From NCBI GenBank assembly GCA_017626655.1, contig JAGAIH010000434.1:1-5269 (forward strand): a DNA stretch of 5,269 bases. Direction: 5' to 3'. This DNA is from Clostridia bacterium. GTDB lineage: Bacteria > Bacillota_A > Clostridia > Oscillospirales > CAG-272. A program made the position numbers and the translations under genes. The notes under the pieces were generated by a model. That model worked only from the letters and a program-made list of their open reading frames with translations, was not told the origin of the DNA and searched no databases. Shown here piece by piece: positions 1 to 5,269 of this stretch (positions within the stretch are counted from its first letter, which is position 1; each line of letters starts with the position of its first letter).

Positions 1-301
1 CGCGCCTTGCCGAGAAGGCATAGCCCCGTCCGTCCATCTCCACCACGGCGGCGTGGAGGAGGTAGACCCCGAAGGCGGGCATCTTCTCGCAGATGCGGCG
101 GTAGATCAGGTAGCTCTCAGCCTCGGGGAGGGTCATGGGACGGCTGCAGGAGGCTCGGTAGCCTTCCATATCGGCGGTGGAGACCGCTACGCGAAAGGCG
201 GGGACGCAGTCGTCGCAGAGGTAATCCTCGCACTGCTCGTAAACGTAGTTATGGCGGTTGTCGATCTCGACGGTGATGCCGGCTATGCGGATGCGGAACA
301 T
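1..301 (-). CDS. HprK/PEPCK-like P-loop protein, N-terminal part (runs off left edge)
   Basis: An open frame of 100 codons starts at ATG 301-299 and continues off the left edge without a stop. The start is fixed by a strong AAAGGAGGG five bases upstream. The visible protein begins MFRIRIAGITVEID, has a Cys-rich stretch around residues 23-33 (EQCEDYLCDDC), then ESYLIYRRICEKMP (about 70-83), and ends with YLLHAAVVEMDG followed by GYAFSARR. From memory, Clostridia have proteins with this layout, often labelled HPr kinase-like or phosphoenolpyruvate carboxykinase-like, in which an HGAA-type strand and an AFSA strand lead straight into a GTGKST Walker A loop. That loop would lie just beyond base 1, so nucleotide binding is predicted, not seen. 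The family's substrate is not established to my knowledge. It lies 106 bases downstream of the small P-loop gene on the same strand, separated from it by a long hairpin, and no promoter of its own is obvious. Confidence 0.72.
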   Translation of the reverse strand, partial: MFRIRIAGITVEIDNRHNYVYEQCEDYLCDDCVPAFRVAVSTADMEGYRASCSRPMTLPEAESYLIYRRICEKMPAFGVYLLHAAVVEMDGRGYAFSARR

Positions 302-306
302 ACGAT

Positions 307-315
307 CCCTCCTTT
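307..315 (-). promoter_or_regulatory. Ribosome binding site of the HprK-like gene
   Basis: The minus strand reads AAAGGAGGG here, a near-perfect anti-16S match, with 5 bases before the ATG at 301. It decides the start of a gene that is otherwise cut by the window edge. Confidence 0.85.
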
Positions 316-330
316 CAGACAGTTTTTTAC

Positions 331-390
331 AGCACACAAGGCGAACAGAGATACCGATGATTTCGGTGGCCTCCGTTCGCCTGCTGTGCT
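331..390 (-). repeat. Long, nearly continuous 60-nt RNA hairpin between the two P-loop genes
   Basis: Arms 331-346 (AGCACACAAGGCGAAC) and 375-390 (GTTCGCCTGCTGTGCT) pair at 14 of 16 positions. Inside them, 347-351 pairs with 370-374 using two G-U wobbles in the minus-strand RNA, and ACCGA 353-357 pairs perfectly with TCGGT 363-367 around a 5-base loop. The whole element thus folds into one stem with a 2x2 internal mismatch and one small asymmetric bulge. The two wobbles pair only in minus-strand RNA and would be A-C mismatches in plus-strand RNA, which favours a role in this operon's transcript. No U-run follows (the minus strand reads GTAAAAAACTG), so it is not a standard terminator. Possible roles are an RNase processing or stability element, a translational control hairpin 15 bases before the Shine-Dalgarno sequence, or a miniature dispersed repeat. 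Confidence 0.75.
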
Positions 391-392
391 AT

Positions 393-403
393 GGGGAGAC
401 CCC
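393..403 (-). repeat. Short GGGG-AGA-CCCC hairpin after the P-loop gene stop
   Basis: Four G-C pairs close a 3-base loop, beginning 4 bases past the stop codon of the small P-loop gene and directly before the 60-nt hairpin in the transcript. No U-run follows. It may help stabilise the 3' end of the upstream message, but it is short enough to be chance. Confidence 0.35.
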
Positions 404-407
404 GAAA

Positions 408-836
408 TTACATGTACTTCTTCAGGTTCTCGTTGAGGTCCTCGGGAGCGACCGAGACGGTGATGGTGACGTTGATATTGGCGTCGCGGATGACCTTCTC
501 CAGGTCGGTGACGAACTTCTCCAGGTCAGCCAGGAACAGAGCCATGTCAGCCTTCTCGTAGCCGAAGATCTTGCGGGTGCCGTCGATGAACAGATCGGTC
601 ACGTCGCCGTTACCGGCCAGGATGCCCGCGACCATGCCGCCCAGAGCGACACCGCCCTCGATGAGGTAATCGTCTGTATTGACAAGGCGCGCCTTGTAGC
701 TGATCTCGTGACGGAGGGTAGCACCCTTCTCGATGCACACCACGTAGCCCTTGGAGGTCTCCAGAGCCTGGTTCACAGCCGCAATCAGGGTCTTGGTCTT
801 ACCGGTACCCTTAACGCCAACAAGTAACTTAATCAT
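408..836 (-). CDS. Small P-loop NTPase-like protein, 142 aa
   Basis: The protein begins MIKLLVGVKGTGKT, so a Walker A loop (GxxGxGKT, residues 7-14) sits at the extreme N-terminus. TDLFID around residues 80-85 is a plausible Walker B strand ending in Asp85. A C-terminal strand (NVTITVSVA, about 122-130) precedes a short amphipathic tail, which fits a compact alpha/beta P-loop fold. Residues 104-117 contain two DLEKxxx heptads, predicted to be an amphipathic helix. From memory this is a recurrent Clostridia family, often mislabelled as a PilT-like twitching motility protein, and I know of no demonstrated function. The frame is open upstream to 932, but the ATG at 836 is preferred. It has AAAGGAAG nine bases before it, it puts the P-loop at the usual position, and the predicted transcription start near 905 lies downstream of the 932 codon. 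It is probably the first gene of a unit with the HprK-like gene. Confidence 0.85.
   Translation of the reverse strand: MIKLLVGVKGTGKTKTLIAAVNQALETSKGYVVCIEKGATLRHEISYKARLVNTDDYLIEGGVALGGMVAGILAGNGDVTDLFIDGTRKIFGYEKADMALFLADLEKFVTDLEKVIRDANINVTITVSVAPEDLNENLKKYM
495..527 (-). repeat. Internal 21-bp-spaced duplication encoding two DLEK heptads
   Basis: The 12-mer CTTCTCCAGGTC (plus strand) occurs at 495-506 and again at 516-527. The spacing of 21 bases equals seven codons. It encodes DLEKFVT followed by DLEKVIR in the small P-loop protein, which points to a short local duplication or to convergent heptad use in a helix. Confidence 0.7.
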
Positions 837-845
837 ATCTATGTA

Positions 846-853
846 CTTCCTTT
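846..853 (-). promoter_or_regulatory. Ribosome binding site of the small P-loop gene
   Basis: The minus strand reads AAAGGAAG, nine bases before the ATG at 836. It supports this internal start over the longer open frame reaching 932. Confidence 0.7.
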
Positions 854-911
854 CTCTCTGCATCCTCCCCCGCGTATCGGGAAAAGACTTCCGCAGATTA
901 GTTGTTAGGTT

Positions 912-940
912 ATTATACCATATTTCCTGCAAAATTGCAA
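912..940 (-). promoter_or_regulatory. Sigma-A-type promoter for the small P-loop gene
   Basis: On the minus strand, TTGCAA (940-935) is followed by a 17-base spacer and a perfect TATAAT (917-912). Transcription should start near 905, giving a leader of about 70 bases. The -35 box lies in a small palindrome, TGCAA-AA-TTGCA (928-939 on the plus strand), which could bind a dimeric repressor. The surroundings are AT-rich in an otherwise GC-rich window, as expected for a real promoter. It is the best promoter match in the window. Confidence 0.8.
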
Positions 941-959
941 GGGGTTTTGGACAGTTTTG

Positions 960-973
960 TGTGAATTTTCACA
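960..973. promoter_or_regulatory. TGTGA-N4-TCACA palindrome, candidate operator
   Basis: TGTGAATTTTCACA is a perfect 14-base dyad. Its centre is about 61 bases upstream of the predicted transcription start of the small P-loop gene, a distance typical of activators that contact RNA polymerase from upstream. The half sites resemble those of the CRP/FNR superfamily, but the spacer is four bases, whereas classical CRP sites have six. The regulator is unknown, and the site could also be a chance AT-rich palindrome. Confidence 0.45.
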
Positions 974-1009
974 TTTTCGGTTGACAGAAAGGTCCACAAA
1001 GGGACAAGC

Positions 1010-2485
1010 TTACCCGTTTTCCCGCTCTGCCAGGAAATCCGCCACCTTACCGATCTCCCGCTTGGCCGATTTCTCGTAGATCTTGAAGGTAGAGGCAATA
1101 CCGATGTTGCCCTGCTTCTCCAGGAAGACCTTGGTGATGGGGAAGCGCAGGTTCTCGAACCAGATAGTATCGCCCAGATCAACCGACAGGGTCGAGAGGA
1201 TGATCTGCATCATATCCACCGAGTCGGGGTCGCGGACGTACTGGGCGGTGAGGGCCTGGTCGTAGTAGGCCTTGTAGACCGTGCCGTAGGAGTAGTAAGC
1301 CAGGGCCTGCATGATGACGCTGGTGCGCTCGGGGTCCTTGGTGTTGGTGGGGACGCAATGGAGCCAGGCGTCACCGCAGCGGGAGACGTAGTCCTCCTGG
1401 TCCTTGTCGTACATGGGCCAGGGCAGGACGCCGTAATCCAGCTCCACCGCCTTGAGGCGGGACAGCTCACCGATACCCGTGGAGAGGAAGAGGGCCTTAC
1501 CGTCCATGAAGGTCTGGAGGCGTCTCTCGTCAGCGCCGTAGACGTCGAAGGCGTTGGTGGCGAACTGGGCGGCGGCCTCCTGCATGATGTCGATCATGCG
1601 CTCGTTGCCCTGGGCGGTGTAGACGGGGAGATCCTCCTCATCCTTGATGATGAGCTTCTCGCCTGCGGCGATCCAGAAGCAGGGGATGGTGCGGTCGTAG
1701 TTCCCCACCAGGCCCAGGACGTCGTCGCCAAAGCGGATCTTGCCGTCGCCGTTGGTGTCGCCAGCGGCCTGGGCGGTCAGGGTATAGAGCCGCTCGTAGG
1801 TCCATTCGCGGTTACGGACGTCATCGTACAGGTTGCCCATGTCATGCTCGGTGACGATCTCCTTATTGAAGAAGAGGGCCGAGGACAGGGAGAAGACGTT
1901 GATGTTCTCCGAGCCGTAAGCGAAGAAGGTATTGTTCCCGATGGTGAACTGCTTGTTGATGTCGTCAAAGTAGTAGACCTTATCGGTGTCCACGTAGGGG
2001 AGCTGCTCGTAGTTGATGAGGTAGTTCTGGAGAGCCGCGCTGAAGGCGTTGCGGGAGATGAGCATGATAAGATCGTAGCCATCGTCCCCCGAGCCCGCCA
2101 TGACCTGCTTTTCCATGGTGACGTAGTTGGCGGTGATGTCGGAGGTGTCGCATTGGAACTCGATGCCGTACTCGTTCTCGATCTGGCGGTTGCGCTCGTA
2201 GATGGCGTCGTTGACGGCCTCGCCCGTGAGCTTGCCGGGATCCAGGGCGGTGTAGTGGGTCTCGCTGGCGATGCTCCGCACGCGGAACTCGTAGCCGTCG
2301 TAGTTGACCTCGGGATTATCCAGGGTGGAGCGGGGATCCTCTGCGGTCTCGGTCTCGCTGAGGGAGCCTTCCGCGGTGGTATCGTCTTCCACGTCGGGGG
2401 TGGAGCAGGAGACCAGGGCAAGACTGCCCATCAGCAGGCAGAGGGACAGGAGAAGGGCCGGGATACGCGCAATTTGGGTCTTCAT
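1010..2485 (-). CDS. Extracellular solute-binding lipoprotein with dockerin-like calcium loop, 491 aa
   Basis: The N-terminus has a basic start, a hydrophobic core (about residues 8-25) and the lipobox LVSC, with Cys27 as the predicted lipidation site. An acidic Ser/Thr-rich linker runs to about residue 53. The mature part has segments I associate with family-1-like ABC solute-binding proteins of gut Clostridia: GEAVNDAIYERNRQIE (88-103), REWTYERLY (226-234), FMDGKALF (326-333), the CGDAWLHCVPT region (370-380) and YYDQALTAQYVRDPDS (407-422). It should be anchored to the outer face of the membrane and bind an unknown ligand, plausibly a carbohydrate. Residues 243-254 form an EF-hand loop like those of dockerins (Asp243, Asn245, Asp247, Lys249, Asp254). 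No permease or ATPase gene is in the window. The start has GAGGAAG eight bases upstream. It lies 98 bases after pgi and may be read through from it, because I see no convincing promoter of its own. Confidence 0.85.
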   Translation of the reverse strand: MKTQIARIPALLLSLCLLMGSLALVSCSTPDVEDDTTAEGSLSETETAEDPRSTLDNPEVNYDGYEFRVRSIASETHYTALDPGKLTGEAVNDAIYERNRQIENEYGIEFQCDTSDITANYVTMEKQVMAGSGDDGYDLIMLISRNAFSAALQNYLINYEQLPYVDTDKVYYFDDINKQFTIGNNTFFAYGSENINVFSLSSALFFNKEIVTEHDMGNLYDDVRNREWTYERLYTLTAQAAGDTNGDGKIRFGDDVLGLVGNYDRTIPCFWIAAGEKLIIKDEEDLPVYTAQGNERMIDIMQEAAAQFATNAFDVYGADERRLQTFMDGKALFLSTGIGELSRLKAVELDYGVLPWPMYDKDQEDYVSRCGDAWLHCVPTNTKDPERTSVIMQALAYYSYGTVYKAYYDQALTAQYVRDPDSVDMMQIILSTLSVDLGDTIWFENLRFPITKVFLEKQGNIGIASTFKIYEKSAKREIGKVADFLAERENG

Positions 2486-2493
2486 ATTTCAGT

Positions 2494-2500
2494 CTTCCTC
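2494..2500 (-). promoter_or_regulatory. Ribosome binding site of the lipoprotein gene
   Basis: The minus strand reads GAGGAAG, eight bases before the ATG at 2485. The signal peptide begins at this ATG, so start and site agree. Confidence 0.7.
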
Positions 2501-2521
2501 TAAATTCAGATAGGATCGCGG

Positions 2522-2573
2522 TGCGGCTCTGCGGAGTCGGTCGGAGCCAAGATGAAACACCCGCAGAGCCGCA
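2522..2573 (-). repeat. 13-bp perfect inverted repeat after pgi
   Basis: TGCGGCTCTGCGG (2522-2534) and CCGCAGAGCCGCA (2561-2573) are perfect reverse complements around a 26-base loop. The stem begins about 10 bases after the pgi stop codon. In the minus-strand transcript it is followed by CCGCGATCC, with no U-run, so it is not a textbook intrinsic terminator. It may stabilise the pgi 3' end, attenuate read-through into the lipoprotein gene, or bind a protein as DNA. Confidence 0.75.
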
Positions 2574-2583
2574 GTTAGAGGCA

Positions 2584-3921
2584 TCAGCCCAGACGGGCCT
2601 CCAGCTCGGCCTTCATATCCTCGTAGCCGGGCTTGCCCAGGAGGGCGAACATATTCTTCTTATAGGCCTCCACACCGGGCTGGTTGAAGGGGTTGACACC
2701 CAGCATATAGCCCGAGATGGCGCAGGCCAGCTCGAAGAAGTAGATGAGGTAGCCGAGAGAGTAGGCGGACTTGTCAGCCAGTTCAATGAGCAGGTTGGGC
2801 ACGCCGCCGTCCACGTGGGCCAGAAGGGTGGCCTGCATGGCGGTCTTCTTGACCTGATTCAGATCCATGCCCGACAGGAAGTTCAGGCCGTCGATGTTGG
2901 CGGGATCGTTCGGGATGGGGTAGGTGACGGGGCTCTCCTCCACCGAGATCACGGTCTCGAAGAGGTTACGCATACCGTCCTGGATGTACTGGCCCAGGGA
3001 GTGGAGGTCGGTGGAGAAGATCACGGATGCGGGGAAGATACCGCGCTGGTCCTTGCCCTCGCTCTCGCCGTAGAGCTGCTTCCACCACTCGTTGAGCATG
3101 GTCTGGTAGGGCTCATAGCCCACCAGGATCTCGGTGGACTTGCCCTTGCGGTAGAGGATGTTGCGGATGGCGGCGTACTTGTAGCAATCGTTGGCGTTCA
3201 GGTTGGGGTTCTTGTAGGCCTCCATGGCGTCGGCGGCGCCCTTCATGAGGCCGTCGATGTCGATGCCCGCCACGGCGATGGGCAAGAGGCCCACGGCGGT
3301 CAGCACCGAGAAGCGGCCGCCCACGTCGTCCGGCACCACGAAGGTCTCGTAGCCGGCCTCGTCGGAGAAGTGCTTCAGGGTTCCGCGTGCCTTATCGGTG
3401 GTGACGAAGATGCGCTCGCGGGCGCCCTCCACGCCGTACTTTTGCTCCAGAAGGGCGCGGAACACGCGGAAGGCCACAGCGGGCTCGGTGGTGGTGCCCG
3501 ACTTGGAGATGACATTGATGCAGATATCCTTGCCCTCGCAGATCTTCAGCAGCTCGTCGATGGCGAAGGCGGAGATATTGTTGCCCGCGTAGTAGATGTC
3601 GGGGGTGTCCTTGGCGGTGTTGTTGTAGAGGGGGGACTTACAGAACTCGATGACGGCGCGGGCGCCGAGATAAGAGCCGCCGATGCCAATGGCGATGAAG
3701 ATATCGCAGGATTTCTTGATCTTCTCAGCGGCGGCCTTGATGCGGGCGAACTCCTCCTTATCGTAGTCCACGGGGAGGGTGGTCCAGCCCAGGAAGTCAT
3801 TTCCCGCGCCCTGACGGGTGGTGAGGAGGTCGTGGGCCAGGGTGACCTGGGGCTGGATGTTGGTCAGCTCCTCGGCGGACACGAAGGACGAAAGGTAATT
3901 GGCGTTGAGACGGACGGACAT
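2584..3921 (-). CDS. pgi: Glucose-6-phosphate isomerase, complete (445 aa)
   Basis: This cytosolic enzyme interconverts glucose 6-phosphate and fructose 6-phosphate in glycolysis and gluconeogenesis. The length matches the short Firmicutes-type enzyme (about 450 residues). Visible motifs in order are [13 protein letters not shown] (77-89), [10 protein letters not shown] (138-147, sugar-phosphate binding SIS region), the family signature [13 protein letters not shown] (199-211, Arg203), [11 protein letters not shown] (284-294), STDLHSLGQ (303-311) and [12 protein letters not shown] (410-421). Glu286, His307 and Lys421 are spaced exactly like the catalytic residues of the Bacillus-type enzyme as I recall them (290, 311, 425). 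The start has AAAAGGTAGG nine bases upstream. It is the complete glycolytic gene of the window, 197 bases downstream of pyruvate kinase on the same strand. Nothing suggests a defect. Confidence 0.97.
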
Positions 3922-3930
3922 GGTTTTATA

Positions 3931-3940
3931 CCTACCTTTT
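3931..3940 (-). promoter_or_regulatory. Ribosome binding site of pgi
   Basis: The minus strand reads AAAAGGTAGG, nine bases before the ATG at 3921. The spacer contains TATAAA, which looks like a -10 box but is more simply an AT-rich spacer. Confidence 0.65.
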
Positions 3941-3958
3941 CAAAAAATTTTCAATGGA

Positions 3959-3967
3959 ATCGTAGCA
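3959..3967 (-). promoter_or_regulatory. pgi: Possible extended -10 promoter for pgi
   Basis: The minus strand reads TGCTACGAT, an extended -10 type element about 38 bases upstream of the pgi ATG. No good -35 box lies 16-18 bases further upstream. The AT-rich stretch that follows (two copies of TTTTCAA at 3937-3943 and 3948-3954 on the plus strand) would be the 5' leader. Weak support. Confidence 0.25.
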
Positions 3968-3997
3968 CACTCTTTCGGGTGCTTTTGCCGGAGAACG

Positions 3998-4012
3998 GAA
4001 CGCAGAACGCAG
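3998..4012. repeat. Tandem GAACGCA duplication
   Basis: GAACGCA occurs at 3998-4004 and 4005-4011, preceded by the related GAACG at 3993-3997. It is part of a cluster of short repeats filling the pyk-pgi gap. Confidence 0.6.
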
Positions 4013-4035
4013 GGGATTATTCGGACAGAAGCGGC

Positions 4036-4060
4036 GGGGACAGTCGGGGACGCCTGTCCC
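4036..4060. repeat. GGGACAG/CTGTCCC hairpin, likely dispersed intergenic repeat
   Basis: GGGACAG (4037-4043) pairs perfectly with CTGTCCC (4054-4060) around a 10-base loop. An alternative tight hairpin pairs GGGAC (4047-4051) with GTCCC (4056-4060). The plus-strand wording around it (GGGGACGCCTGTCCCTAC) resembles short intergenic repeats I recall from gut Oscillospirales genomes; this is memory, not a search. No U-run follows on either strand, so a terminator role for pyk is not supported. Confidence 0.55.
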
Positions 4061-4087
4061 TACAAAGGCTCGCTTCCCTACTCCCCC

Positions 4088-4121
4088 AATTACGAATTAC
4101 GAATTGCGAATTCCGAATTAC
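4088..4121. repeat. AATTNCG 7-bp tandem array overlapping the pyk stop codon
   Basis: Five consecutive units start at 4088, 4095, 4102, 4109 and 4116: AATTACG, AATTACG, AATTGCG, AATTCCG and AATTAC. Only the fifth base varies. The last unit contains the TAA stop of the pyruvate kinase gene (4120-4118), so the array abuts and supplies the end of the coding sequence. It is AT-rich against the GC-rich coding DNA around it. Confidence 0.85.
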
Positions 4122-5269
4122 TTCAAGGGCTTCGGCACGACCTGCACCTTCAGCACGTCGGTGGTGCCGCTCTCCCCCGTACCGCCTGCGGTGACCACCA
4201 CGCGGTCCCCCGCCTTGACGTAGCCGAACCGCTTGGCGCAGTCCACGGCGTGAGTGACCAGGACGTTGGTGTCGGGCTGGTAGATGGCGTGAATGGGGTA
4301 GACGCCCCAGCAGAGGGCCAGCTGATTGAAGGTCTTCTCATGGGGAGTAGCTGCCACGATGGGCTCGGAGGGACGGTATTTGGAGAGGTGCTGGGCGGTG
4401 TAGCCCGAGCGGGTCACGGTCAGGATGGCAGCGGCGTTCAGATCTCTCGCGGTGGTGCAGGCGGCGTCGCAGATAGCGTCGGTGGCGTCACCCGTGTATC
4501 GCTCGTGGCCCGCGATGGCGCGGTAGGCGCCGATCTCAAAGGCGTCCTTCTCGGCCTGGGCGGCGATGCGGCCCATGACCTTGACCACGCGGGCGGGGTG
4601 GTCGCCCATGGCGGTCTCCCCCGACAGCATAACGGCGGAGGTGCCGTCAAAGACGGCGTTGGCCACGTCGGTGATCTCGGCTCTGGTGGGGGTGGTGTTG
4701 TGGATCATGGACTCCAGCATCTGGGTAGCGGTGATGACGACCTTGCCCGACTGGTAGCAACGGCGGATGAAACGCTTTTGCAGGCCGGGGAGGCGCTCGT
4801 AGTCCACCTCCACGCCCATGTCGCCGCGGGCCACCATGATGCCGTTGGCGGCCTCCAGGATGGACTCGAAGTTCTCGATGCCCTCGGCGTTCTCGATCTT
4901 GGCCAGGATGCGGATGTTGTGACCGCCGTAGTAGTCCAGGTAGTTCCGCATGGCGATAATGTCGTCGGCGGTGCGGACGAAGGAGGCGGCGATGTAGTCC
5001 ACGTCCATCTCCACGCCGAAGCGGAGGTCGGCCATGTCCTGCTCGGACAGGTAGGGGATATCCAGGTGGACACCGGGGACGTTCACGCCCTTGCGGTTGG
5101 AGACCTCACCGCCGATGATGACCAGGCAGACCACGTCGGTGGCGGTCAGGTCGGTGACCCGCAGCTCGATGCGGCCGTAAAACACATATTCCGCCCCCAG
5201 GGTCAGCTGGTTTTTCACATAGGGGCTGTTGAAAAAGACCAGGCCCAGGGACCCGGTCTCGTCAAAGAC
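4118..5269 (-). CDS. pyk: Pyruvate kinase C-terminal two thirds, joined in frame to a RecG-like segment; 5' end off the window
   Basis: The frame is open from the right edge to TAA 4120-4118 (383 residues visible). From about 5170 leftwards it is pyruvate kinase, which converts PEP and ADP to pyruvate and ATP in the cytosol. The match starts inside the B domain (IELRVTDLTATDVVC, then NRKGVNVPG), followed by IAASFVR, ILAKIENAEG (with the catalytic-region Lys, about 4915-4886), MVARGDMGVE (about 4837-4808), VITATQMLESM and PTRAEITDVANAVFDGTSA, and a complete C-terminal domain ending GTTDVLKVQV. There is no extra C-terminal PEP-utiliser domain. By comparison with E. coli PykF, the kinase match begins near residue 130. 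The N-terminal part, which carries the nucleotide- and K+-binding Arg, Asn, Ser and Asp residues, is not upstream in this frame; the sequence there looks RecG-like instead. The product as read would not be a normal active kinase. GTG at 5218 is not taken as the start, because the frame continues through it and it has no clear ribosome binding site. Confidence 0.85.
   Translation of the reverse strand, partial: VFDETGSLGLVFFNSPYVKNQLTLGAEYVFYGRIELRVTDLTATDVVCLVIIGGEVSNRKGVNVPGVHLDIPYLSEQDMADLRFGVEMDVDYIAASFVRTADDIIAMRNYLDYYGGHNIRILAKIENAEGIENFESILEAANGIMVARGDMGVEVDYERLPGLQKRFIRRCYQSGKVVITATQMLESMIHNTTPTRAEITDVANAVFDGTSAVMLSGETAMGDHPARVVKVMGRIAAQAEKDAFEIGAYRAIAGHERYTGDATDAICDAACTTARDLNAAAILTVTRSGYTAQHLSKYRPSEPIVAATPHEKTFNQLALCWGVYPIHAIYQPDTNVLVTHAVDCAKRFGYVKAGDRVVVTAGGTGESGTTDVLKVQVVPKPLK
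5165..5269 (-). other. RecG-like OB-fold (wedge) segment fused to pyruvate kinase
   Basis: The 35 codons at the right edge read FDETGSLGLVFFNSPYVKNQ and then LTLGAEYVFYGRIE. A DxTG turn, a strand ending VFFN, a Pro-Tyr-x-x-x-x-Leu helix, a Gly, then a strand ending YGR/K is the pattern of the OB-fold wedge domain of RecG, the ATP-dependent helicase that remodels stalled replication forks. Pyruvate kinase has no such sequence before its IELRV strand, where it normally reads DDGLIEL. The join falls at the shared Ile-Glu (codons ATC GAG, 5170-5165). Only one OB strand set is visible, so another OB-fold protein is possible, but the FFN-xPY pattern favours RecG. Confidence 0.6.

Follow-up and report, generated by a model that had tools for sequence, protein, structure and literature searches.

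The join between recG and pyruvate kinase (pyk) sequences in the analysed window, i.e. the whole 5269-base stretch of DNA, most plausibly reflects a chimeric contig end and not a real recG-pyk fusion. Very probably, it is an inter-species chimera that arose as a library or assembly artefact; we infer that the join was made in vitro or in silico and did not form inside a cell. A genuine fusion would represent a rare cross-family gene join.

An open reading frame combines RecG and pyruvate kinase sequences

A single open frame on the minus strand extends from position 5269 to a stop at 4118 and reads VFDETGSLGLVFFNSPYVKNQLTLGAEYVFYGRIELRVTDLT...NRKGVNVPG. It encodes about 36 residues of the RecG wedge/OB-fold type, followed by pyruvate kinase from about residue 126 (Table 1). 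The sequence-only reading had described a RecG-like OB-fold that runs without a stop into a pyruvate kinase lacking its first ~130 residues; the uninterrupted frame and the matches to the RecG protein P0121 and to Pfam agree with this description, and comparison with the intact kinase P0002 places the missing part at residues 1-125 in P0002 numbering. The Pfam search of the whole edge-frame protein aligned its residues 22-228 with positions 120-327 of the pyruvate kinase profile (PF00224), also matched the PK_C domain (PF02887), and returned no RecG family. Submitted alone, the 36-residue edge hit the OB-fold family PF01336 below the cut-off only (E 0.0027, 18 of 27 bits).

Both halves are fragments. 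The motifs RLNFSHG and DTKGPEVR, which presumably serve substrate and ion binding in pyruvate kinase, are present in P0002 and absent from the edge frame, and the frame does not hold a complete kinase A domain. On the other side of the crossover, the ~36 RecG residues are accompanied by no helicase motor, and the wedge-plus-motor arrangement of RecG is lacking. Because the fused protein is a singleton whose contig measures 5269 bases, the window is the entire contig, which ends beyond the RecG scrap, 91-109 bases from the junction.

Table 1. Features of the window that bear on the recG-pyk join
Feature	Position	Strand	Evidence
RecG wedge/OB-fold scrap of a putatively different bacterium, ~30 residues (alien tip)	5179..5269	-	P0121 match; RecG of relatives; DNA identity
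Crossover zone, at most 18 nt possibly common to both parents (peptide GRIEL)	5161..5178	-	DDGRIELR in P0002; FYGRIELQ in P0121
pyk, covering residues ~131-477 of the 477 in a normal protein	4118..5160	-	Pfam PK and PK_C; P0002; DNA colinear with L001
pgi, glucose-6-phosphate isomerase, native neighbour of pyk	2584..3921	-	PF00342 (E 1.7e-20); pyk and pgi adjacent in L001, L002 and L033

The kinase side and the position of the breakpoint

Positions 3-5178 of the window form a 90% DNA alignment with L001, a contig of a Clostridia MAG (genome G001) from a roe deer rectum sample. The conserved pyk-pgi neighbourhood (Table 1) indicates that the kinase side belongs to the contig's own genome. The nearest kinase, the intact 477-residue P0002, shows one difference in 347 positions over window residues 37-383. 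In the kinase search, 7997 proteins were scored and the best 120 were examined, one of them being the window itself. All 119 non-self kinases among these best 120 of 7997 are intact, with a Met start and IDDG, LDDG or VDDG at the junction site; the 12 nearest among the matches listed (P0002-P0013) uniformly have DDGRIELRV, and the window has FYGRIELRV instead. Any other copy of the fused protein should stand near the top of the best 120 of 7997, but none was found among the 119 non-self kinases, leaving the window protein as a singleton. A recG-pyk fusion was likewise found in 0 of 12 genomes from the genus of G001, and the exact junction 33-mer did not occur in viral contigs, which would not be expected to carry cellular genes. 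The true gene fusion considered in the sequence-only reading thus does not recur, either among the 119 kinases of the best 120 of 7997 or in the 12 genomes of the genus.

When the last 670 bases of the window were compared with the same 12 genomes, 11 gave a match and one did not. In four genomes, those with the longest matches, the alignment starts at query position 92 (corresponding to window position 5178), in a fifth at query position 106, and in six further inside; in none of the 12 does it extend into the tip. The ungapped identity to six pyk relatives (L001-L005 and L033) amounts to 58-80% at positions 5160-5101 and 67-89% in the crossover zone, and falls to 23-32% at 5269-5179. Relative to colinear sequences, the window therefore has a sharp breakpoint, located at 5178 by four of the 12 genomes and visible as an identity step in all six loci compared. 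The third-position GC content of 77% in the 30 tip codons versus 91% in the kinase part gives weak support to two origins.

The RecG tip points to another lineage

A protein database search with residues 1-40 scored three candidates, as targets were confined to 0.55-1.75 times the query length and most full-length RecG proteins lie outside this range; besides the window itself it gave one match, P0121, with 34 of 37 residues identical (92%, E 1e-12). P0121 is a 277-residue RecG N-terminus that contains the RecG_wedge domain (PF17191, E 1.7e-21) and matches the solved RecG chains 9wm0 and 1gm5. Given these two E values, the likeness of the edge to RecG is not a chance similarity. Searched separately, as proposed in the sequence-only reading, the edge led to a RecG N-terminus, and the Pfam search of the whole frame identified the remainder as pyruvate kinase. 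P0121 is close to the RecG source of the tip but not identical with it, and continues after the matched part with FYGRIELQGRTRVMKNPEF. Its residues ~248-277 have a high proline and arginine content, and the alignment with 9wm0 stops at residue 247; the C-terminal end of P0121 may be frameshifted, and its 1917-base contig may carry an error of its own.

The edge is 38-44% identical to the RecG proteins of five relatives, four from the genus of G001 (G002, G003, G005, and G006) and one from its family (G004). RecG gave no match in G001, which would be explained by an incomplete MAG. P0121 has matches in 137 of 146 sampled genomes from the family of G001, at no more than 39% identity, and in 83 of 87 genomes from another family of the same order (that of G300), at no more than 52%. 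At the DNA level, the edge matched 15 of the 394 genomes sampled from the order, with a best identity of 76% over 99 of 106 bases. A protein database search with P0121, again among candidates of 0.55-1.75 times the query length and hence outside full-length RecG, returned 56 proteins including P0121 and the window; the next ones cover 88% of the query at 43% identity and 58% of it at 55% identity. The two sides accordingly differ in affiliation: the kinase side falls within the genus of G001, where RecG of relatives resembles the edge at 38-44%, and P0121 reaches at most 39% in the family. On account of this low RecG identity within both genus and family, the tip is assigned to a lineage other than that of the kinase side.

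A peptide common to both sides accounts for frame retention at the crossover

P0002 and P0121, the closest known proteins of the two sides, have GRIEL in a common reading frame (Table 1), and the longest stretch assignable to both parents is the 18 nt at 5178-5161. If this stretch encodes GRIEL in both parents, a switch at any point inside it keeps the frame. The one-in-three chance previously given for frame preservation is superseded by this observation. A microhomology at ATCGAG (5170-5165) had also been suggested; the possible overlap around the shared Ile-Glu may extend to 18 nt and is not confined to these 6 nt. Among the 394 genomes sampled from the order, none contains the exact 18-mer. 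The case for DNA sharing therefore comes from the proteins, according to which the 18 nt may have been common to both donor DNAs.

Origin of the join

We propose that the bulk of the contig (bases 3-5178) comes from one Clostridia genome and the 91-base tip from another bacterium's recG, and that the two pieces were presumably joined inside the short, possibly common stretch of at most 18 nt coding GRIEL. The route may have been a chimeric read, a chimeric library fragment, or an assembler overlap at the contig tip; the junction lies within about one short read of the contig end and therefore fits any of these. The smallest k in common assemblers is usually about 20-21. Provided that P0121 is a good guide to the residue after GRIEL, the overlap amounts to 18 nt or less and stays under this value. 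This disfavours a pure graph join, and a chimeric read or library fragment appears a little more likely. The chimera that the sequence-only reading had listed among its options is thus favoured by the closest relatives of the two sides, the sharp breakpoint, the contig-end position, and the intactness of the other pyk genes listed.

We regard both a real fusion and a deletion as very unlikely. One such event would be recombination in the cell of a foreign recG fragment into pyk at a short stretch, with loss of the kinase N-terminus, leaving a pseudogene or a fused protein. The frame is indeed open across the junction, and microhomology joins do happen in cells; however, the fused protein is a singleton beside 119 of 119 intact kinases (best 120 of 7997), it would lack kinase residues 1-125 with both RLNFSHG and DTKGPEVR, its edge frame has no RecG motor, and the junction lies no more than about 110 bases from the contig end, which together make an in-cell origin highly improbable. 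That a genuine horizontal microhomology join exists in some cells and yields a truncated, RecG-tagged kinase is, in our estimate, extremely improbable. A deletion that fused adjacent recG and pyk genes within one genome, also raised earlier, has the join itself in its favour and nothing further, and is scarcely credible: the edge shares only 38-44% identity with the RecG of five relatives, and recG and pyk are on separate contigs in five of six relatives (the sixth, G001, has no recG match), these being fragmented MAGs in which separate contigs are no proof of great distance. Finally, the notion that the edge is a natural N-terminal variant of the kinase and not RecG, in favour of which BLASTP weakly aligns residues 18-31 with the kinase and Pfam places the start of its PK match at residue 22, is of negligible probability and was rejected, as the DNA there is 23-32% identical to pyk relatives, the edge is 92% identical to P0121 with its PF17191 domain (E 1.7e-21) and its matches to chains 9wm0 and 1gm5, and the 119 non-self kinases (best 120 of 7997) all have IDDG, LDDG or VDDG at the site, with no intact kinase among them carrying the edge sequence.

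The case recommends a general caution: an in-frame 'fusion' within about one read length of a contig end should be compared with relatives of both halves. The preserved frame here reflects a peptide common to the nearest relatives of the two halves and is no sign of biology.

Other features of the window and of L001

The first ~250 bases of L001 look like an alien start as well. On the opposite strand they resemble a portion of an M20 peptidase dimerisation domain (E 0.00027; at 21.3 bits, barely above the cut-off of 21), and this piece joins pyk at about VPAAVML. Positions 1-250 of L001 are perhaps a second chimeric contig end in pyk, with another partner and another breakpoint. Two bad contig tips would be a simpler reading than a breakage hot spot in pyk, because the two tips have neither partner nor breakpoint in common and all 119 kinases (best 120 of 7997) are intact.

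Between pyk and pgi, at 4037-4121, the window contains GGGACAG...CTGTCCC as a short inverted repeat, together with a series of AATTACGAATTACGAATTGCGAATT-type repeats; among 107 loci, exact matches to the inverted-repeat and AATTACGAATTACGAATTGCGAATT-type patterns occur only in L001 and L095, both from one genome. An extracellular solute-binding protein (PF13416, E 8.4e-8) is encoded next to pgi at 1010-2485, and its start appears lipoprotein-like by eye. The ORF at 408-932 includes the sequence GVKGTGKTKT, which we take to be a P-loop-like motif, and has no Pfam match at E 0.001.

Comparison with known systems

With RecG proteins (PF17191; P0121, 9wm0, and 1gm5), the window edge has in common ~36 residues of the wedge OB-fold, whereas the remaining parts of these proteins have no counterpart in the window, where the contig stops. 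With pyruvate kinases (PF00224 and PF02887; P0002 and the solved chain 3t05), it shares residues ~126-477, covering the C-terminal domain together with a portion of the barrel domain, whereas the 125 N-terminal residues of these systems are absent from the window frame.

Two published settings are relevant to the proposed chimera. According to PMC7299287, assembly graphs from closely related species frequently become connected through common k-mers, which makes chimeric contigs possible; that case concerns closely related species, whereas the two sources in this window are not closely related. For amplified DNA, PMC1855051 reports that more than 70% of chimeric junctions were primed at complementary stretches of 2-21 nt; those chimeras arose in multiple displacement amplification, mostly within one molecule, and the sample preparation behind the window may differ. 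The window resembles an inter-species chimeric contig in its two origins, its sharp switch, its short possible overlap, its position at a contig end, and its single copy. It differs in the preserved frame, a consequence to be expected if both genes encode GRIEL in one common frame.
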